Positions 45,134 through 55,988 of a stretch of DNA of 64,000 nt are shown in pieces (the stretch's first letter is position 1; every line of letters begins with the position of its first letter). The DNA is from Bacteriovorax sp. Seq25_V. GTDB taxonomy: Bacteria > Bdellovibrionota > Bacteriovoracia > Bacteriovoracales > Bacteriovoracaceae. The stretch covers positions 310,001 to 374,000 of the forward strand of contig NZ_AUNI01000015.1 in the NCBI RefSeq assembly GCF_000447795.1, written 5' to 3'. Below the pieces are notes generated by a model. The model was not told the origin of the DNA, made no database searches, and saw only the letters and a list, made by a program, of their open reading frames with translations. Both the position numbers and the translations under genes were made by a program.

Positions 45134-45234
45134 GTTTAGCCCTCGTTTATTAAAATATACCGACAATATTCTGTGATTCTAAGTCGAGTTCGTATTGTAT
45201 AATATAAGCAATTGAACCTAGATGGAGATTGCTT

Positions 45235-45774
45235 ATGAGTGCTCTATTAGAATTTTACACGAATAGAAAATCTAATCCAGATGGTCTTTTCCTAAAGGAT
45301 ATTTGGAATTTCTCAGATTGGGAGTTAGAAAATAGGCACCAATATATTCAGTGGCTATTCCCTCTAGAGATGAAAAGTAATCATAATGATACTTCCTTGG
45401 TTGTTTCAGCTGATGAAGTTAGAGAAGCATTAAGCTCACGAGACTTTCAAGAAAATCTTTTTCACTCACTTCAGTTAATGGAGGATTTTTGGGGATTTAA
45501 AGTCAAACATAAATACCACCCTGAAAGTTCTCCTACGATGAAGAAGGATTATATCGCAAAAAATTGGGTGACTCTTTATAACCACAATTACATTAGGATT
45601 ACGAGAGTTCTTCATTCGTTGAAAATTTTTGGTCTTGAAGAAGAGGCAAAAGAATTACTTAACTACCTTGAGACAGAAGTTTATGCACATAACCGACATT
45701 CAATAGGACAGCAAACTTTGGACTATTGGAAATCTGCTCTTGAGACAGAACCCATGTTTAGTGAATCAGCTTAA
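45235..45774 (+). CDS. OGFr-like (opioid growth factor receptor conserved region) protein
   Basis: A 179-residue soluble protein. The segment LLEFYTNRKSNPDGLFLKDIWNFSDWELENRHQYIQWLFPLEMKS matches the OGFr conserved domain, whose signature is LE-x-x-H-x-YIQWLFP. Bacterial copies exist but have no established function; despite the name they are not receptors. The ATG at 45235 was preferred over TTG at 45229 because of the GGAGAT ribosome-binding site. Its stop interlocks (TTAA) with the DUF2237 gene. Confidence 0.85.
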   Translation: MSALLEFYTNRKSNPDGLFLKDIWNFSDWELENRHQYIQWLFPLEMKSNHNDTSLVVSADEVREALSSRDFQENLFHSLQLMEDFWGFKVKHKYHPESSPTMKKDYIAKNWVTLYNHNYIRITRVLHSLKIFGLEEEAKELLNYLETEVYAHNRHSIGQQTLDYWKSALETEPMFSESA

Positions 45775-46313: not shown

Positions 46314-47030
46314 ATGATGAACAGATATACGATATTTTTTGTCGATGATAATGTCGACTATTGTGAAGTTTTCTTCGAAGAACATAAAGATGAGTTTAAT
46401 GTACTTACGCACAATGATCCAAAAACAGTGCTTGAGCATGTAAAGCGCGTCAATCCTGACCTCATTATTCTAGATGTCCATATGCCTTGTAAATCAGGAG
46501 TTGAAGTTTTTAATGATATTAGAAAAACAACGGAAATCGAGAACATTCCAATTCTGTTTTTATCAGCAGATGAAAGAGATGAAACTGTCTTAATGCATTT
46601 AAAATTAATGCCAGAAGACTTCCTTTTTAAGACAATGTCTCACAATCAAGTCTCGGCACGTATCAAAAATCGTTTGATCTCTCGTCGCTCAGCTTCCATG
46701 AGTAGCTCAGAAAAAGAAGGAGAAAATATTTCTTTTGGAAATCTTGAAATGGAAAGTGATAAGTTTCGTGTAAAGATAAATTCACTGGAAATTCAACTTA
46801 CAAATATTGAATATAAAATGCTCTTCTACATTCTAACAAATAGACTCACTTCTCCTACAAAGGATGGACTCGTTAATTTTGTTTGGGGTGATTCGTATGT
46901 AGCAAGTAGAACAGTAAATACGCATCTTTCTAATCTTAGATCTAAAATTTCTGATGCAAATTTTATCATCAAAGTTTCGCGAGTAGGAAACGTCATTAGA
47001 GTTATCGAGCAAGTGGCAGCCAGTTCTTAA
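46314..47030 (+). CDS. OmpR/PhoB-family response regulator
   Basis: A 238-residue regulator. The receiver domain (1-120) has the acidic pocket DD at 11-12, phospho-acceptor Asp54 in LIILDVHMP and the conserved Lys in FLFKTMS. The C-terminal winged helix (about 140-235) is LEIQLTNIEYKMLFYILTNRLTSPTKDGLVNFVWGDSYVASRTVNTHLSNLRSKI. No kinase is adjacent. There is no Shine-Dalgarno. TAAACT at 46302-46307 ends exactly 6 nt before the ATG, consistent with a leaderless mRNA. Stops interlock (TTAA) with hemN. Confidence 0.93.
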   Translation: MMNRYTIFFVDDNVDYCEVFFEEHKDEFNVLTHNDPKTVLEHVKRVNPDLIILDVHMPCKSGVEVFNDIRKTTEIENIPILFLSADERDETVLMHLKLMPEDFLFKTMSHNQVSARIKNRLISRRSASMSSSEKEGENISFGNLEMESDKFRVKINSLEIQLTNIEYKMLFYILTNRLTSPTKDGLVNFVWGDSYVASRTVNTHLSNLRSKISDANFIIKVSRVGNVIRVIEQVAASS

Positions 47031-48358
47031 ACACTCTGGCTAAATCGCTTCTGTTCTGTTTGTCCCTCTAGGTACTCATCAAAAATTGCACAAATATTTC
47101 TTAGAAAGATATTTCCAATCTCTGTAACTGAGTAACAGTCGTCTTTCATTTCAAGTAGACCATCAATTACAAATTGATTGAGTTTTAAAGCCGTTCTAGG
47201 ATTGAGATTTTCAGTTAAAGGTATTCTTTGTGTACACATCAATTTTTGAATTTTTAAGTTCTGTTCTTGATCTATAGGCGTTAAAAGATGGGACGTGGTG
47301 ATGCTAGCTTCCCCAGTAAGAGTAATCTGGTTAATATATTCTTTAACATTTTTTTCATTTTGTTTATAAGCAGACGGAGTATTCGAAATACTTGTTGCTC
47401 CAAGTCCGATTAGAACTTTTGACTTTTGATCTGTGTATCCCATGAAGCTTCGTTGTAGCTTATTCTCTCTGAGCGCCGTTTCTAGGTAGCTTCCTTTTTT
47501 CGCGAAATGGTCTAAGCCGATCTCAACGAAATCATCTCCGAGGAGTTCTTGGCGTCCTCCTTCGTAGAGTGCTCTTTTCTCTGAAGAAGAAGCCAGTAGG
47601 TCTGCATTAATGAGGCGTTGGTTTTTTATTCTCTCTGGGAGGTGAGCATAGCTATAGAAGCTAATCAAGTCAGGCTTTAGGGTGAGTGATTTCTGTATTG
47701 TCGCTTTTACAGTCTCAGGGCTTTGGGCCGGGAGGCCATAAATAAGATCAAAGTTAATTGACTTGAAGCCATTGGCCCTAAGCTTTGAGACAGTTTCAAC
47801 TACTAACTCATAACTTTGAATACGATTAATTTGTTTTTGAACTTCAGGGTCAAAGTCTTGGATGCCGAGTGAGGCTCGAGAAAATTTATATTCTTTAAAT
47901 ACGTCGAGTTGCTCGTCTGTAAGTGTTCGCGGGTCTATTTCAACAGCTCCAATAAAATCATTTGAAATATAAGGCCTAAAGACTTCTAGCATGCTTTCAA
48001 GTTGCGACCTGTTTAGGAAGGTCGGAGTACCGCCACCTAGATGGATTGACTTAATCTTAAGCTTCGAAGCAGAGCCAAGATTTCTTAGGAGGAAGCTCCA
48101 CTCGGCCCTAAGTGCCGTAATATATGGATCTGCCTTAGATTCGCTCTTTGCTATTTCACGATTACAACCACAATACCAGCAAAGTTTTTTGCAGTATGGT
48201 ATATGGATATAGATATCTAACTCAGGGGCTCCCGAGAGGTGCTCATTGACATTTTCAAGCCAGATAAATGGGTTCAGGGCCTTATTCCAGTGAGGTAGGG
48301 CCGGATAACTAGTGTAGCGGGGGAGTGCTTTATCGTATTTTTCGTATAGTTTTTCCAT
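47027..48358 (-). CDS. hemN: Oxygen-independent coproporphyrinogen III dehydrogenase HemN
   Basis: A 443-residue radical SAM enzyme converting coproporphyrinogen III to protoporphyrinogen IX anaerobically in haem synthesis. The [4Fe-4S] ligands are C56-x3-C60-x2-C63 in YIHIPYCKKLCWYCGCN, with the extra C65 that marks true HemN rather than HemW. SHLGGGTPT-like IHLGGGTPTFL, VEIDPRTL and SLGIQDFDPEVQKQINRIQ are the SAM and substrate segments. The C-terminal HemN domain (RTALKLNQFVIDGLLEM) is present. It has a good Shine-Dalgarno (TAGGGA). Confidence 0.95.
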   Translation of the reverse strand: MEKLYEKYDKALPRYTSYPALPHWNKALNPFIWLENVNEHLSGAPELDIYIHIPYCKKLCWYCGCNREIAKSESKADPYITALRAEWSFLLRNLGSASKLKIKSIHLGGGTPTFLNRSQLESMLEVFRPYISNDFIGAVEIDPRTLTDEQLDVFKEYKFSRASLGIQDFDPEVQKQINRIQSYELVVETVSKLRANGFKSINFDLIYGLPAQSPETVKATIQKSLTLKPDLISFYSYAHLPERIKNQRLINADLLASSSEKRALYEGGRQELLGDDFVEIGLDHFAKKGSYLETALRENKLQRSFMGYTDQKSKVLIGLGATSISNTPSAYKQNEKNVKEYINQITLTGEASITTSHLLTPIDQEQNLKIQKLMCTQRIPLTENLNPRTALKLNQFVIDGLLEMKDDCYSVTEIGNIFLRNICAIFDEYLEGQTEQKRFSQSV

Positions 48359-48457
48359 TCCCTAAATATGATTTAGCTTAGTGTTTTTGAGTATGATTTA
48401 GATCATAAAGATTAATTGTATTTATTACATATTTATGGAGAAACCGCTGGTTGGTGC

Positions 48458-48463
48458 TATAAT
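48458..48463 (+). promoter_or_regulatory. -10 element for a probable leaderless mRNA (zincin/ATP-grasp operon)
   Basis: A consensus TATAAT lies at 48458-48463 and exactly 6 nt separate it from the ATG at 48470. The expected +1 is therefore the A of the start codon. No Shine-Dalgarno precedes that ATG. The -35 region is poor. Confidence 0.55.
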
Positions 48464-48469
48464 CGGCCC

Positions 48470-49459
48470 ATGGTCTTTGATAACCTTTCTCACATTTCAA
48501 CATCGACTCTTTTGAGACTCAAATTGAGAGATCTTAATATCTCATTTGAAGAGTCTGGACTTGCAAAGAATCTGAGTATTCTTCATGCTGAACTTCAAAA
48601 AAAAGGACTCAAAGTTAAGCCACTTATTTGGGGAAGTGATGATTGGTTTTGTCCTGATGATCATACCTCATTCGCAGTTCCGTTTACTCTGTTTCATCCA
48701 AGACTTACTGAATTAGAAAAAGATATTTGTGGTGAAGTTGAAGGAGATTCGCGTGATGAATTTCTCAAGCTGTGCCGCCACGAATGTGGTCATATTGTGG
48801 ACAATGCTTACCTTCTTCGAGAAATTGCGGGGAGAGTAGAATTATTTGGTGACCACAATCAAGCGTATCCACAGGATTATACTTTTAAAAAGTATTCGAA
48901 GAAATTTGTTCGTCACCTGAGTGAGAATTACGCGCAAGCTCACCCTGAAGAAGATTGGTCTGAGACATTTGCTGTGTGGTTAACTCCTGGAAGTGCTTGG
49001 AGATCAAAGTATGAGGGGTGGGGCGCACTTCGAAAGCTTAACTATGTTAATAGCGTCATGAAGCAGTTAAAAAATAAAAGGGTCTCTCGTCGAAATGATT
49101 TCTTTTATGATCATTTTAAAAGTCTTGATATGACTTTTGGTGAATATTTAAAGCAAAAGAAGAAATTAAAAAGTAGAAAGTTTAAGTTCTCTCAGCTTCG
49201 GGCCATAAATATCTCTGAAGGAGAAGATTTATCACTTGCCCTAAAAGAAAATAGAAAAGAGATTATTGATCTGATTTGCTCTCAAACAAAAATAAAAAAA
49301 TACGATCTTACCTATGTTTTAAAAGATTTAGAATTGAATGCTCGAAAAAAAGGCCTTAGAATTAATAAACGAGCAAAAAAAATGGATGTGCTTAATCACT
49401 TAGTGATTGGTCACGCCAAGACGTTCTTATCTGATGGAAAACATAGGATCATAATGTGA
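48470..49459 (+). CDS. Putative zinc-binding metallopeptidase (Peptidase_Mx-like)
   Basis: A 329-residue cytoplasmic protein. The zinc motif is CRHECGHIVDNAY (H104, E105, H108), and the third ligand is probably E165 in EEDWSETFAVWL, the Mx-family D-W-x-ETFA signature. The C-terminal 130 residues are basic and helical. The ATG at 48470 was chosen over TTG at 48416, since a consensus -10 lies exactly where a leaderless start would be. The ATP-grasp gene overlaps by 4 nt (GTGA). The pairing suggests opposing peptide bond cleavage and formation on one target; that is inference. Confidence 0.82.
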   Translation: MVFDNLSHISTSTLLRLKLRDLNISFEESGLAKNLSILHAELQKKGLKVKPLIWGSDDWFCPDDHTSFAVPFTLFHPRLTELEKDICGEVEGDSRDEFLKLCRHECGHIVDNAYLLREIAGRVELFGDHNQAYPQDYTFKKYSKKFVRHLSENYAQAHPEEDWSETFAVWLTPGSAWRSKYEGWGALRKLNYVNSVMKQLKNKRVSRRNDFFYDHFKSLDMTFGEYLKQKKKLKSRKFKFSQLRAINISEGEDLSLALKENRKEIIDLICSQTKIKKYDLTYVLKDLELNARKKGLRINKRAKKMDVLNHLVIGHAKTFLSDGKHRIIM

Positions 49460-50466
49460 CGCTAAAGAAAGATAAAAGAGTACTTGTATTATTTCATAAG
49501 TCCCTTGTTCCACCTGAAGTGGTCGATGAATCCCATGAAAATTTTGAGTTTGAACCTTGGATCACAGAGTATAATGTTCTTAAAGCACTTAAAGAGCTAA
49601 AAGTATCAAGTAAAGGCTTAGGTGTTTATAGTGACTTAGGAGTTATCAAAGATACTATTGATGAGTATAAGCCTCATATTATATTCAATCTTCTTGAGGA
49701 GTTTGACGGTGAAGTTCTCTTTGATCAAAACGTTGTTAGTTTTCTTGAACTCCTAAGACAAAAATATACTGGATGTAATCCGCGAGGTTTGATGATCTCA
49801 AGAGATAAATCTCTAGCTAAAAAACTCTTGGCCTATCATCGAATTCCAACACCAAAGTTTCAAAATTTTCATAAATCAAAATCAGCAAAACTTTCTAAGA
49901 AGTTAAAGTTTCCACTTATCGTAAAGTGCCTTTTTCAAGAAGCCTCACTGGGGATTTCAAATGCCAGTGTTGTAAATAATGAAGAGAAGCTTTATGAGCG
50001 TGTGGCATACCTTATTGATAAGTATGACAGTGAAGTTATTGTCGAAGAGTTTATAGAGGGGCGTGAATTCTATGTTGGTGTTATGGGAAATAAACGACTC
50101 GAAGTTCTGCCTGTCTGGGAGTTAAAATTTGAGAATGTTGATAACCCTGGAAAAGAACTTTATTCGGAAAATGCAAAGTGGAACAAAAAGTATCGTGAAC
50201 GAAAAGGTATCTCGTCATCCAAAGCTACATTAGACTCTGAACTTGAGAAAAAAATTGCTCACATCTGTAAAAAAACCTATAAGGCACTTGAACTCAGTGG
50301 TTATGCGCGAATTGATCTACGAGTGACAAAAGATAATGAGATTTATGTTCTAGAAGCAAACCCAAATCCAAATATTGCTAAAGCGGATGAGTTTGCTCTT
50401 TCTGCACAAGCACGGGGCATGAAATATAAAGAGATGATCTCAAAAATAATTCAGATTGGTTTATGA
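49456..50466 (+). CDS. ATP-grasp ligase, D-Ala-D-Ala ligase-like
   Basis: A 336-residue ATP-grasp enzyme starting at GTG inside the preceding stop. Segments in order: the N-terminal domain ending PHIIFNLLEEFDGE; KYTGCNPRGLMISRDKSLAKKLLAYHRIPTPKF, FPLIVKCLFQEASLGIS (ATP lysine and the S-x-GIS loop), VIVEEFIEGREFYVGVMG, and the metal site GYARIDLRVTKDNEIYVLEANPNPNI. It forms an acyl-phosphate to join a carboxylate to an amine. It differs from Ddl in having a shorter omega loop and probably joins another peptide substrate. It is translationally coupled to the zincin. Confidence 0.87.
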   Translation: MTLKKDKRVLVLFHKSLVPPEVVDESHENFEFEPWITEYNVLKALKELKVSSKGLGVYSDLGVIKDTIDEYKPHIIFNLLEEFDGEVLFDQNVVSFLELLRQKYTGCNPRGLMISRDKSLAKKLLAYHRIPTPKFQNFHKSKSAKLSKKLKFPLIVKCLFQEASLGISNASVVNNEEKLYERVAYLIDKYDSEVIVEEFIEGREFYVGVMGNKRLEVLPVWELKFENVDNPGKELYSENAKWNKKYRERKGISSSKATLDSELEKKIAHICKKTYKALELSGYARIDLRVTKDNEIYVLEANPNPNIAKADEFALSAQARGMKYKEMISKIIQIGL

Positions 50467-51561
50467 TTTTATTGGGCTATATGCTTTTGGTGAGACGCGC
50501 TCTCCATCCCATACGTTGAGCTTTTCAAACTCTGTTTTAAGTTGGCCACAGGCCGCAAGGATATCATCACCTTTTGTTACACGTACTGTGCATGTGTAGC
50601 CGCGATCATGGAGTTCATTTTGAAACCAAGCGACTTTTTCATTGCTTGGTCTTTTATATTCACTTCCTGGGTATTCATTAAATGGAATAATATTTATTTT
50701 AGATTCTTTTCTAACAAGAAGATCGCAGAGCCCATTAATATCTTCGATTGCATCGTTGAGATTATCAATCAATAGGTATTCATAGGTAATACGACGAGAA
50801 GCCTTAACTGGAATTGTTTTAAGGGCCCTAAAAAGTCTTTCAAGGTCATGGGCCTTATTTATCGGCATTAGTTTTGATCTGAGGTCATTTCTAACGGCGT
50901 GTAGAGAAATTGCAATATTGATATCTGGAAAGTCATCCCATTTTTCAATTTGGTTTGCAAGACCTGAAGTTGAAAGAGTAACTTTTGTTTTACTCAGTCC
51001 AATTCCATCGGGGTGAATAAAAAGTGAGATTGCTCTTTTAACATTTTCAAAGTTATGAAGAGGTTCCCCTTGTCCCATGAAAACGATATTTGTAAGGCGA
51101 CTTTCTTTATTCACATTATCTATAAGCCATTTTGAAACAGCTAAGAACTGTCCAACGATCTCTGCCGTTGTTAAATTTCTTGTTAGACCTTGAGTTCCTG
51201 TATGACAAAAAGTACAACCAATAGCACACCCAACTTGTGAGGAGATGCAAAGAGTTAATCTATCTTTAGCAGGAATGGCGACGGCTTCGACAGTATTTGA
51301 GTCAGTAAGTCCGATAAGAAATTTTCTTGTGCCATCACTTGATAAACCATTCCACGCAATTTTTGGAAGCTTAAATTCAAAGTTCTCTTCAAGAAATTCT
51401 CGAGTTTGCTTAGAGGTTTTATCCCAGTGTGTGAGGTTTGGTTCTTTCTTTTTAAAGAACCACTTGTTGATTTGAGAAAAGACATGATCCTTGAGACTAT
51501 TTGTCTCACAGAAATTATTTATTTCACTAGGAATTAAGTCGTATATTGGTCTTTTGCTCAT
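50461..51561 (-). CDS. rlmN: RlmN-type dual-specificity rRNA/tRNA adenine C2 methyltransferase (copy 1)
   Basis: A 366-residue radical SAM methyltransferase acting on A2503 of 23S rRNA and A37 of some tRNAs. Cluster ligands are C112, C116 and C119 in SSQVGCAIGCTFCHTGTQGL. The methyl-carrying Cys is in GDDILAACGQL near the C-terminus. Other landmarks are FMGQGEPLHNFENVKRAI, VTLSTSGLANQI and NIAISLHA. The C-terminal extension of about 20 residues is slightly longer than in copy 2. The 3' end overlaps the ATP-grasp gene by 6 nt. Which of the two copies is the housekeeping RlmN cannot be decided by eye. Confidence 0.92.
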   Translation of the reverse strand: MSKRPIYDLIPSEINNFCETNSLKDHVFSQINKWFFKKKEPNLTHWDKTSKQTREFLEENFEFKLPKIAWNGLSSDGTRKFLIGLTDSNTVEAVAIPAKDRLTLCISSQVGCAIGCTFCHTGTQGLTRNLTTAEIVGQFLAVSKWLIDNVNKESRLTNIVFMGQGEPLHNFENVKRAISLFIHPDGIGLSKTKVTLSTSGLANQIEKWDDFPDINIAISLHAVRNDLRSKLMPINKAHDLERLFRALKTIPVKASRRITYEYLLIDNLNDAIEDINGLCDLLVRKESKINIIPFNEYPGSEYKRPSNEKVAWFQNELHDRGYTCTVRVTKGDDILAACGQLKTEFEKLNVWDGERVSPKAYSPIKS

Positions 51562-51665
51562 AGCGCAAAATTACTTATTATTCCTTCGACAGTCAAGAAA
51601 TTAAGTGACCGAAAACTCCCGTTTTTGTGTATAATCTCAATGTAAATAAATATCTAGGAGGGAAT

Positions 51666-52439
51666 ATGAAATTACTGATGATTCTTATGTCATTTCTTAT
51701 GGTTAGTTGTTCAAGCCTAAAAACTAATGAAATTAATTATTCAACAGATTCAACAAAGATGAATGGCTACCTGGCCAAGAGTTCTAAGATTAAGGGAAAG
51801 AGACCAGGTGTCATTATTGTACACGAGTGGTGGGGACATAATGATTATGTTCGTCATAGAGCAGATATGCTCGCTGATCTTGGTTATGTTGCTTTTGCTC
51901 TTGATATGTATGGTGAGGGGAAACAGGCTAATCACCCAAAGTTGGCGGGGGAATTTGCTACGGCTGTGATGACAAATCAAAAAGAAGCAGCTGCAAGATT
52001 TCAAAAGGCCCTTGAAGTATTAAAGAATGATCCAGATGTCGATCAAACAAAAATCGCGGCAATCGGTTACTGCTTTGGTGGTGGGGTCGTTCTTGCTATG
52101 GCAACGGGCGGAATGGATCTTAATGGAGTTGTTAGTTTTCACGGATCTCTTGGACATATCAAAAAAGTTTCAAAGAAAGCTAAAGCAAAATATCTTGTGC
52201 TAAATGGTGAAGCTGATCCAATGGTGACAGCTAAAGATATTAAGAATTTCAAAAAAGTGATGAAGAAGAGTAAGTCCGATTATAAATTTGTAAATTATCC
52301 AAATGCTCTTCACGCTTTTTCAAATCCTGCAGCAACAGAGATTGGAAAGAAGTTTAGCTTACCAGTTGCTTACAACGCAGAAGCTGATAAAGCATCTTGG
52401 GAAGAGATGAAAATATTCTTCGATAAAATTTTTAAATAG
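51666..52439 (+). CDS. Dienelactone hydrolase-family lipoprotein
   Basis: A 257-residue alpha/beta hydrolase. The ATG at 51666 follows TAGGAGGGAAT and gives a lipoprotein signal (MKLLMILMSFLMVSC, Cys15). The nucleophile is Cys136 in AAIGYCFGGGVVL, with Asp in NGEADPMV and His in NALHAFSNP, the Cys-Asp-His triad of dienelactone hydrolases. An oxyanion-type VHEWWGHND opens the domain. Substrate unknown; the envelope location is unusual for catechol pathways, so a general esterase is likelier. Two further genes follow within 3 nt. Confidence 0.9.
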   Translation: MKLLMILMSFLMVSCSSLKTNEINYSTDSTKMNGYLAKSSKIKGKRPGVIIVHEWWGHNDYVRHRADMLADLGYVAFALDMYGEGKQANHPKLAGEFATAVMTNQKEAAARFQKALEVLKNDPDVDQTKIAAIGYCFGGGVVLAMATGGMDLNGVVSFHGSLGHIKKVSKKAKAKYLVLNGEADPMVTAKDIKNFKKVMKKSKSDYKFVNYPNALHAFSNPAATEIGKKFSLPVAYNAEADKASWEEMKIFFDKIFK

Positions 52440-53196: not shown

Positions 53197-53947
53197 TAAA
53201 TTTATCAATATGTGTGCAAAGCCACTCCGGAGCATCGAGTGAAAGATCATGTCCAGCTGTTGGGTGAATTTCGATTTCTGAGCCAAGTCGTCTTGCTAGA
53301 TTGACACTGCAATTATAAGAAACGAGTCTGTCTCCAAGACCTGTCACAATCAGGGTTCTTGTAGCCAGTTTTTTGGGAGCACTTGTTTTGGCGGCCCATA
53401 GAAGTTGACGACCAAAGTTTTTCATCGACATTGGCTCTTTTTCTGCGAGAACGGCCCATTCTGATGCAATACGATCTTTTTCTTCATTACTAATATTATT
53501 GGTCGTGAGATCTAAAACAATACGTTCACGATTTTTTAAATCTTTACTTTTAATCGCAGCGATAAAAGTTTTGTATATTTTGTAGTTTAATCTTTCATAA
53601 AATGGACTGAGGTCTTTTGCACTACTGTTAATGATGATGATACTATCGCAAAGCTTAGAGAAATGTTCTGTCAGCTTTAGGGTAACAAGTCCACCAAGGG
53701 AAATACTAATAAAGTGCCAAGTTCCTTCGGGGTGTTTACTTTTTAATTGATCAAGATCATTTTTAACTTGTGTAAGTAGGGATTGCGTTTCTAGTGGAAA
53801 AACCTCCTCGTACTTACTCCCACTTCCGGGAAGGTCTATAAAGTGAACTTTTGCATCTGCTATGGCCTGACATAGCTGTTCTGGAAAATTACTCCAGTGT
53901 CCTTTTTGTCTACCTAAACCTCTAATTAGTACAAAGTTTCTCGTCAT
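53189..53947 (-). CDS. Alpha/beta hydrolase
   Basis: A 252-residue cytoplasmic alpha/beta-hydrolase. The oxyanion segment is LIRGLGRQKGHWSNFPEQL. The nucleophile elbow is SISLGGLVTL (Ser), the acid is probably in VTGLGDRLV, and the catalytic His in TAGHDLSLDAPEW. The layout resembles BioH-like esterases or MenH, but no specific assignment is possible. The ATG shares one base with the stop codon of the M14 peptidase gene upstream, so the two are coupled. Confidence 0.87.
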   Translation of the reverse strand: MTRNFVLIRGLGRQKGHWSNFPEQLCQAIADAKVHFIDLPGSGSKYEEVFPLETQSLLTQVKNDLDQLKSKHPEGTWHFISISLGGLVTLKLTEHFSKLCDSIIIINSSAKDLSPFYERLNYKIYKTFIAAIKSKDLKNRERIVLDLTTNNISNEEKDRIASEWAVLAEKEPMSMKNFGRQLLWAAKTSAPKKLATRTLIVTGLGDRLVSYNCSVNLARRLGSEIEIHPTAGHDLSLDAPEWLCTHIDKFTN

Positions 53948-54906
53948 TATTTAGCCACCCAGTTGTGATGATTTTTAATTGCCTGTGTAAAGAAGTCAAA
54001 AAGTAGCATATGCCTTCTCATGACTCTTTCAAAGCGGTGTTGTCTCACTGGATTAAATAGTCCAAGCACAGACAAGACCTGTATTGGATTCTTTTTCACC
54101 CATAACCATGAGCCTAGTTCGAGTGTCCAGGGAATGAATGTTCCATAAGATTCTTTTTGTGCATGGCTTAGGTCAAAGAGATAATCCCAGAGATCCCCGC
54201 TTGTTGTGTAACTCTGAGATTGTTGCTCAATAAGATATATATGATGCGGCAAAGTTTTATCGAGCAAGCTTTTAAATTGAAGAGCTTCACTCGTCAAAGG
54301 AAAAGGACTTCTCGTTTTGGCGTAAGGAAACCAAAGACGATCCTTCATGCCAAAACCTGAATGTAGATCAAGGGCCATTGAAAACTTTGATGGGAACATT
54401 TCTTTTTTAACAAAATTAATAACAGCAAGATTTTCTCTTTCTATTACTCCCTCTTGTCCTCGATACCACGGAAGCTTAGAACTATATCGCTGGCCCCCTA
54501 AAAGCGGAGCTGTTTTTTCTGTTGATTCAACAGGAGAGTTTCTCATGAGGTCGACGCCATTTCCATTTGAGCGATAGATAAGATCCATTCCAACAGGATT
54601 AATTAAAGGAATACAAACTAATCTAAAATTTGAAAATGAACTTGCTAGTTCGTCATCCCAAGATAATCGTGTAAAAAGATTTTGAAGATTTGAAATTGCC
54701 AGATGAGTTCCAACTCTTTCTAGTCCATGAACACCTGCAAAAATTCCAAAGGTTGGAGCCTCTGGGTCTTGTGATCCAATAGAAAATGCATGAAGTGGGT
54801 AAGATTTATTTTTAAAATCGATGGTGTCTAAAATTTCGTGTCTAACGATAGGATGGCTAAATTTTGTGAGCTCTTCGATATCTTTTAATTCTTGGAATTC
54901 TCTCAT
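53947..54906 (-). CDS. M14-family zinc carboxypeptidase (DUF2817-like)
   Basis: A 319-residue metallocarboxypeptidase. Zinc ligands are H60 and E63 in AGVHGLERVG and a His in MALDLHSGFG. Substrate residues are in LINPVGMD and GVDLMRN. The catalytic Glu is in PWTLELGS. There is no signal peptide, so it acts in the cytoplasm, perhaps on peptides or murein tripeptides. The downstream hydrolase shares its stop/start junction. It could be related to turnover of peptide tags, but no substrate evidence exists here. Confidence 0.88.
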   Translation of the reverse strand: MREFQELKDIEELTKFSHPIVRHEILDTIDFKNKSYPLHAFSIGSQDPEAPTFGIFAGVHGLERVGTHLAISNLQNLFTRLSWDDELASSFSNFRLVCIPLINPVGMDLIYRSNGNGVDLMRNSPVESTEKTAPLLGGQRYSSKLPWYRGQEGVIERENLAVINFVKKEMFPSKFSMALDLHSGFGMKDRLWFPYAKTRSPFPLTSEALQFKSLLDKTLPHHIYLIEQQSQSYTTSGDLWDYLFDLSHAQKESYGTFIPWTLELGSWLWVKKNPIQVLSVLGLFNPVRQHRFERVMRRHMLLFDFFTQAIKNHHNWVAK

Positions 54907-54971: not shown

Positions 54972-55988
54972 TTAGCTTTTTGTATTTAACTGACCACAAG
55001 CAGCGAGAATGTCATCACCTTTAGTTTTTCTTACACTTGCAAAGAATCCGTGATCAACAAGTCTTTGTTTGAAGTTATCCACATCTTTATCAAGTGGGCG
55101 TTTGTACTTCGCTCCTGGAAACTCATTGAATGGAATTAAGTTAAAAATCACAGGAAGGCCACTTAGTAACTTAACAATTTCTTGAACATGCTCTTCGCTA
55201 TGATTCATATCTTTGATAATCAAGTATTCAAATGTTAAATACTGTCGTTTTAATCTAGGAATATCTTTTAAGGTGCTTACAATTTCCTCAATTGGGTAAG
55301 CTTTATTCAGTGGAATAAGCTCATCTCTTTGATTGTTAAAAGGAGAGTGAAAGCTAAGTGCGATATTTACTTGGTTAAGTTCTTCAATCTTCTTAAGACC
55401 TGGAAGGTAACCTGCTGTTGAAAGTGTGATTTGTCTCGGTCCAAGGTGAAGTCCACGTACCTCAAGAAAAATTGAAATCGCTCTCTTAATATTATCAAAA
55501 TTATGGAGAGGTTCACCCTGACCCATGAATACAATATTTGGTGCTGCAAATTTCTCTGGAAAATTTTCCTTGATATAATTATATGCGAGTACATACTGTC
55601 CTACGATCTCGTGTACCTCGAGATTACGTTTTAGTCCCTGAGTCCCTGTAAAACAAAAGCTACATTTCATTGCACATCCAACTTGGGACGAAATACAAAT
55701 TGTATATTTTTTATTAAATGGTACGAGTACAGTTTCAACGCAGTTGCCGTCAGAAAGTTCAACTAGAAACTTAACAGTGAGTTCATCTTCAGCTGTTTGA
55801 ATTTTTTGTATTTTAGGTAGTGCCAAGTTAAAATTTGTCTTCAAGTATTGTATGAAATTTTCTGGAATATGTTTTTCACTACCTTTATATTTTGATGTGT
55901 AAAAGTTTTCAGCGTGTACGTCTTTATAACCATGCAGACTTGTCAGGCTCTTAAAATCGGTTAATGAATAATCGTAAAAATTTTGCAT
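54972..55988 (-). CDS. RlmN-type radical SAM methyltransferase (copy 2)
   Basis: A 338-residue paralogue of the gene at 50461. It has cluster ligands C105, C109 and C112 in SSQVGCAMKCSFCFTGTQGL and the methyl-carrier Cys in GDDILAACGQL, so it should be active. FMGQGEPLHNFDNIKRAI and ITLSTAGYLPGL are conserved. The N-terminal accessory domain differs strongly from copy 1. Both are nearer RlmN than Cfr because of TGTQGLxRN. It may divide the rRNA and tRNA substrates with copy 1. Confidence 0.9.
   Translation of the reverse strand: MQNFYDYSLTDFKSLTSLHGYKDVHAENFYTSKYKGSEKHIPENFIQYLKTNFNLALPKIQKIQTAEDELTVKFLVELSDGNCVETVLVPFNKKYTICISSQVGCAMKCSFCFTGTQGLKRNLEVHEIVGQYVLAYNYIKENFPEKFAAPNIVFMGQGEPLHNFDNIKRAISIFLEVRGLHLGPRQITLSTAGYLPGLKKIEELNQVNIALSFHSPFNNQRDELIPLNKAYPIEEIVSTLKDIPRLKRQYLTFEYLIIKDMNHSEEHVQEIVKLLSGLPVIFNLIPFNEFPGAKYKRPLDKDVDNFKQRLVDHGFFASVRKTKGDDILAACGQLNTKS

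Follow-up and report, generated by a model that had tools for sequence, protein, structure and literature searches.

In a 64,000-nucleotide stretch of the genome of Bacteriovorax sp. Seq25_V (the window), a Peptidase_Mx zincin gene overlaps a gene for an ATP-grasp ligase that resembles D-Ala-D-Ala ligase (Ddl), and the pairing of these two genes in other genomes is far beyond chance. Both proteins have intact catalytic motifs, the pair is broadly distributed and its ligase departs from Ddl. The original prediction of a coupled zincin and ATP-grasp module is strongly supported by the presence of the ligase in 111 of the 113 genomes of the phylum with a peptidase match (one of these matches being doubtful), by a start codon positioned for the gene overlap in 76 of the 88 distinct pairs and by the non-Ddl character of the ligase. 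Hosts of the pair include relatives of predatory bacteria and genomes whose labels read Nitrospira, Planctomycetes and Acidobacteria; its active sites are almost unchanged, and it matches just generic models (Ddl-like ligase, putative peptidase).

Gene layout of the pair

The two genes and their four-nucleotide overlap were confirmed as predicted (Table 1). A mechanical list of open reading frames puts the peptidase start at a TTG at 48416; relatives favour the ATG. The gap between the peptidase gene and the divergent upstream gene measures 111 bp. The single promoter that had been proposed for both genes lacks support, its match being no better than chance (6 promoter-like sites against 6.0 expected), and 10 of the 239 columns of the start-region DNA are invariant in an alignment of the window with five same-genus loci. 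A regulatory RNA at the pair was rejected, as no Rfam family was found at gathering score in 47900-51700.

Table 1. Positions of the pair and its surroundings in the window
Feature	Position	Strand	Details
Divergent gene upstream of the pair	47027-48358	-	
Weak candidate promoter	48436-48463	+	TGGAGA-16-TATAAT, extended -10; consensus match only
Peptidase_Mx zincin gene	48470-49459	+	329 aa; ATG 48470, stop 49457-49459
Stop/start overlap at the peptidase-ligase junction	49456-49459	+	4 nt, GTGA; read from sequence
Ddl-like ATP-grasp ligase gene	49456-50466	+	336 aa; GTG 49456, stop 50464-50466
Radical SAM gene convergent to the pair	50461-51561	-	end overlaps ligase end; Pfam Radical_SAM
M14 gene	53947-54906	-	Pfam 57.5 bits; starts 3.5 kb past the ligase

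Elsewhere in the window lies a second RlmN-like radical SAM gene (54972-55988, minus strand), 3.4 kb from the one at 50461-51561 on the same strand; Pfam assigns Radical_SAM, and the two look by eye like RlmN paralogues. A further gene at 45229-45774 encodes a bacterial protein that carries the conserved region of the opioid growth factor receptor (PF04664, 81.3 bits).

The pair in near genomes and in the phylum

Co-occurrence of the two genes, on which the predicted coupling hinged, was found in near genomes, in the phylum and in wider relatives. The peptidase is present in 18 of 38 near genomes (own genome included); the same 18 have a ligase match that scores 240 bits or more, adjacent to the peptidase in every case. 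The most frequent third gene near the pair reaches at most 8 of the 18 near loci (open reading frames of at least 60 aa, on stretches that are shorter where contigs are short). The M14 carboxypeptidase, earlier proposed as a possible member of the same pathway, fared poorly: within up to about 9 kb on each side, and less on short contigs, a clear homologue was found in one of the 17 non-window loci (L054, same genus), with a weak match of 74 residues in L058, and M14 was rejected as a third part of the unit.

Across the phylum (368 genomes, the window's own among them), we found a peptidase match in 113, a ligase match in 122 and both in 111, compared with about 37 expected if the genes were independent and kinship is ignored; the 113 include a doubtful match in G278 (24 residues, 21 bits), without which the counts are 112 for the peptidase, 122 for the ligase, 110 for both and 12 for the ligase only. 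The tally drew on 116 peptidase places, which include a fragment in G067 and from which five further weak or secondary fragments had already been left out, and on 123 ligase places of at least 239 bits, weaker matches (mainly tandem ATP-grasps) being left out. Peptidase followed by ligase on one strand within 1.5 kb was observed in 103 genomes. The eight genomes in which both genes are present and non-adjacent comprise seven with the genes on different contigs, G278 among them, and G089 with an intervening gene. In two of these, G241 and G366, the genes are apart and each is internal to its contig, which indicates that both have been kept without the operon; G368 and the locus L085 are the same genome as G241 and count as one piece of evidence. 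The two peptidase-only genomes (G239 and G364) each have the gene at a contig end, and the ligase-only genomes (11 of 122) include several with divergent ligases and one, G255, with the gene at a contig start.

Breadth of the pair over bacteria

When bacterial and archaeal genomes were scanned with the ligase alignment, at least 572 relatives emerged, of which the best 80 were kept. In 72 of the 80 the peptidase gene immediately precedes the ligase gene on the same strand, a rate that may be lower among relatives more remote than these top-ranking loci. The records of the 80 are labelled Bdellovibrionota, Acidobacteria, Nitrospira, Methylomirabilis, Planctomycetes, Gammaproteobacteria, Hyphomonadaceae, Deltaproteobacteria and Binatia, besides a cyanobacterial and an acidimicrobial MAG, these names being the submitters' labels and some records overlapping the 368-genome set. 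Eight of the 80 have no adjacent peptidase: four of these genomes show a match elsewhere (one a fragment) and four show none, their completeness being unstated. One of the lone-ligase loci, L085, is genome G241. Another, L144, comes from a 2.5-Mb assembly labelled as a Klebsiella pneumoniae MAG, a label that is probably wrong.

Over both sets, 76 of the 88 distinct pairs have an in-frame start codon where it gives the four-nucleotide overlap (77 of 90 before the copies L070, of L054, and L071, of L064, were removed). The protein distance matrices of peptidase and ligase correlate with r = 0.83 over 84 pairs, and 1000 permutations reached at most 0.25; L070 and five pairs with short matches were left out of this comparison and L071 stayed in. 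The correlation reflects joint inheritance rather than contact, and shared species history also contributes to it.

Apart from the pair, no neighbour is similarly constant, the most frequent one occurring in 18 of the 80 loci (frame shadows of the pair excluded by eye). This bears on a graspetide-like peptide natural-product cluster with a leader peptidase, which we regard as scarcely credible. Zincin peptidases do occur in some graspetide loci, as a passage of PMC8939145 states, but here the pair alone is broadly conserved (open reading frames under 60-70 aa fell outside the clustering), and the upstream gap together with the overlap of the ligase with the convergent gene leaves no space in which a precursor gene could flank the pair. 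Lacking both such room and a broadly conserved third gene, the peptide natural product was rejected. A defence system was rejected as well, since neither protein has a PADLOC match at E ≤ 0.01. A search of viral structures returned no match at E ≤ 0.001.

Outside the pair counts, two loci without the peptidase (L068:5269-10077 and L069:6299-9621) encode a tandem double Ddl-type ATP-grasp protein of about 680 aa that adjoins a Peptidase_S58 protein and, in L068, also a CN_hydrolase protein with an N-terminal extension; the neighbours in L068 were assigned by Pfam and the S58 protein of L069 by eye.

The ligase is not an ordinary Ddl

By score and by its Ddl fold, the ligase belongs to the ATP-grasp / Dala_Dala_lig_C superfamily: it matches Dala_Dala_lig_C (PF07478) with 131.8 bits against a Pfam cut-off of 24, and its structure model (pLDDT 89.7) superposes on DdlB with a Z of 32.9 and an rmsd of 2.5 over 295 aligned residues. 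Against the Ddl model TIGR01205, however, it scores about 143 bits (142.7-143.3), under the cut-off of 245.65, whereas a canonical Ddl elsewhere in the same genome exceeds that cut-off with 286.5 bits. The ligase lies under the cut-offs of all NCBIfam models listed (25 of the 59 matched) and, in the family-alignment search, far under every Ddl/Van cut-off listed (25 of 28). Ddl models are matched by every one of the 50 sequences in the family alignment, the cut-off comparison being that of the window's ligase only.

The residues around the acceptor point the same way. In the C-terminal domain of Ddl, D-Ala-D-Ala is contacted by a Ser-Leu/Met pair, as described in a part of PMC6899670; the five PDB Ddl sequences that we compared, two of them near-identical, have Ser followed by Leu or Met, and the genome's own canonical Ddl has Ser-Met. 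The window ligase carries D311/E312 at these sites, and position 311 is acidic in 48 of 50 family and 17 of 18 near sequences, position 312 in all 50 and all 18. At position 163 the genome's own Ddl has Ser and 43 of the 50 ligase-family sequences have Ala, and 39 of the 50 have N or Q in place of the Gly of the NTxPG motif. K118, K157, E197, D287, E300 and N302 are invariant (50/50) and the same in the own Ddl. Tyr246, which aligns with the Ddl Tyr, is Tyr in the whole family (50/50) and in 16 of 18 near sequences (His in the other two), and the residue preceding it is Lys in 30 of 50, so that a loss of the Ddl omega-loop Lys-Tyr was dropped as a candidate difference.

A second ordinary Ddl, one of the two outcomes that would have refuted the original prediction, is rejected by the scores below cut-off, by the separate canonical Ddl and by the acidic residues in place of Ser-Leu/Met. 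From the residues kept and exchanged we infer an active ligase with an acceptor different from that of Ddl, and the uniformity of the acceptor site over phyla suggests a single common substrate for the family. The ligase of the pair is also a caution that Ddl-like proteins should not be tallied as Ddl.

VanX is a zinc dipeptidase, and a cell-wall variant like VanA plus VanX, in which a modified peptidoglycan dipeptide ligase would work with a matching dipeptidase, would agree with a Ddl/Van-like fold and a zinc peptidase partner. We consider it highly improbable, as the ligase is far under every Ddl/Van cut-off listed in either search (25 of 59; 25 of 28), an acidic residue replaces the Ser that contacts D-Ala-D-Ala, and the peptidase belongs to Peptidase_Mx, from which the VanX family presumably differs.

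A probable cytoplasmic zincin

The product of 48470-49459 is a member of Peptidase_Mx (PF15887; 34.5 bits against a Pfam cut-off of 27), a model matched at E ≤ 0.01 by all 44 aligned relatives. Its HExxH (H104-E105-H108) and the residues Y154, E161, D162 and E165 are invariant in all 18 near and all 44 wider sequences, Y154-x6-E161 forming the invariant motif YAQxHPxED. No signal peptide was seen by eye, and the protein is probably a cytoplasmic zincin-type peptidase.

The best refined fold matches of the structure model (pLDDT 88.1) are zincins of the lethal-factor type with a Z of about 10, followed by Pro-Pro endopeptidases (PPEPs) with a Z of 7-8 and the Peptidase_Mx1 structure 4l7a with a Z of 7.0, values below 8 possibly reflecting just a common arrangement. 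Similarity to M34/PPEP-like zincins extends over 135-140 residues at a Z of about 10, with an rmsd of 3.1-3.4 for most top matches; Foldseek at E ≤ 0.001 returned no match for the model, and the zincin fold match is modest. The Tyr-x6-Glu spacing agrees with the catalytic Tyr (named in PDB titles) and the zinc-binding Glu of PPEPs. Resemblance to MATCAP is negligible (E 0.70), and an analogy with tubulin tyrosination was dropped for this reason.

Residues of about 205-329 appear to form a C-terminal helical part. A recurring C-terminal tail, H[RK][IVL]x[LMVIF], is a possible docking or modification site by its sequence; the strict motif fits just 49 of 88 distinct proteins, and the tail was set aside as a substrate or docking site and stays a lead. 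Several other peptidases end in a different, ETPHxxL-like tail. Apparent fusion proteins were discounted, as the long frames in L119, L124, L129 and L145 look by eye like GC-rich upstream read-through; long peptidase frames also occur in some phylum genomes, for example G340 and G367. A full-text search of open-licence PubMed Central for PF15887 found no paper.

Proposed function

We tentatively favour, at a little under even confidence and by analogy, a dedicated partnership in which ligase and hydrolase share one substrate, the likeliest form being a reversible modification of the RimK/RimB kind. From its fold and its retained ATP/Mg residues, the ligase would turn a carboxylate into an acyl phosphate and then join an amine. 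The acceptor pocket is acidic where Ddl has Ser/Leu, which makes an amino acid with a free alpha-carboxylate an improbable acceptor; a likelier one is an amine whose end is basic or neutral, for instance a side chain, a protein end or a polyamine. The zincin would in turn hydrolyse an amide bond in that substrate, and its most likely role is to undo or trim the addition made by the ligase; the pair would thereby control how far a cytoplasmic target is reversibly modified, much as RimK/RimB do with ribosomal protein S6. A pair kept over phyla without a constant third partner most simply has one substrate; we infer that the peptidase and the ligase share a bond and act on it in opposite directions, and make-and-break of one bond by the two enzymes is plausible.

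The main rival is sequential rather than opposed: the peptidase would expose a new end of a protein or peptide, which the ligase would then modify. For such sequential steps operon and co-inheritance would look alike, co-inheritance being equally expected; wherever the genes are adjacent the order is always peptidase then ligase, and the peptidase fold resembles endopeptidases, those of the lethal-factor/PPEP type having an extended cleft. Gene order by itself says little, however, and a conserved third gene, for example for a dedicated substrate, was not found near the pair, so that we regard successive trimming and capping as rather doubtful.

Turnover of a small-molecule amide (a storage compound, an osmolyte or a cofactor precursor), with the ligase making a dipeptide-like metabolite that the peptidase salvages, would suit the small amino acids that Ddl-fold ligases normally use and the spread of the pair over unrelated phyla, as expected of general metabolism. 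The Ser-Leu contacts of Ddl are lost, though, and the zincin resembles protein-cutting enzymes, if at the level of fold only; we judge this reading unlikely.

Reversible modification of peptides by a ligase paired with a peptidase is an established principle, and if the two enzymes of this pair share a substrate, as the favoured partnership holds, a common bacterial modification could come to light. A search of open-licence PubMed Central, mostly by titles and the starts of abstracts, found no paper on the pair; a 2009 amidoligase survey lies outside that scope. That survey, which is cited by PMC6376114 and PMC12239564, reportedly drew a general connection between ligases and peptidases and may cover related gene neighbourhoods.

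Comparison with known systems

A close parallel is RimK/RimB, a glutamate ligase for S6 and a retropepsin-like peptidase, which likewise combine an ATP-grasp enzyme and a cytoplasmic peptidase encoded together; a section of PMC12239564 describes RimB stripping in vitro the glutamates added by RimK. RimK is a RimK-type ATP-grasp, whereas the ligase of the pair is Ddl-type, and the RimB-like PF05618 fold differs from the HExxH zincin. PF05618 has no match in the genome of the window. The idea that the pair replaces RimB was rejected, as PF05618 occurs in 115 of the 368 phylum genomes, many of which also have the pair. A RimB-like PF05618 gene was seen about 2.3 kb from a lone ligase (L191:5685-6161), and in another genome (G256, contig C39:3-2356) a partial PF05618 gene immediately follows the pair in the same orientation, at a contig end.

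The RloA/RloB/RloC system of Pseudomonas aeruginosa is also an operon in which an ATP-grasp protein and a peptidase take part in the same process. According to the portion of PMC12239564 that covers it, deleting rloB, rloC or both fully rescues the low-osmolarity growth of a triple peptidase mutant and partly rescues its other defects. It has a secreted aspartic peptidase and a membrane partner, whereas the pair consists of two probably cytoplasmic proteins, one of them a zincin. The Anbu operon, presented in a passage of PMC6376114 as a proposed peptide-tagging system that joins an ATP-grasp ligase with a hydrolase-fold protein, has four other genes (ATP-grasp, alpha-E, transglutaminase-like and Ntn-hydrolase), and genes of this type were not seen among the conserved neighbours of the pair (18 near and 80 wider loci, compared by clustering rather than by name).

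Taken singly, the ligase shares its fold and ATP-site residues with Ddl/Van ligases and differs in its scores below cut-off, in the acid-acid residues for Ser-Leu/Met and in the exchange of the NTxPG Gly for N or Q. The peptidase has HExxH in common with PPEP/lethal-factor zincins and 4l7a, resembles them modestly in the predicted fold of its catalytic domain and has the Tyr-x6-Glu spacing of PPEPs; it differs from these zincins in its probable cytoplasmic location, its apparent C-terminal helical part and its link to a ligase. The bolder claim, that a Ddl-derived ligase tags a protein end or basic amine and a dedicated cytoplasmic zincin removes the tag, as an undescribed writer/eraser system of many phyla separate from RimK/RimB, Pup and Anbu, is one that we put forward with distinct reserve.
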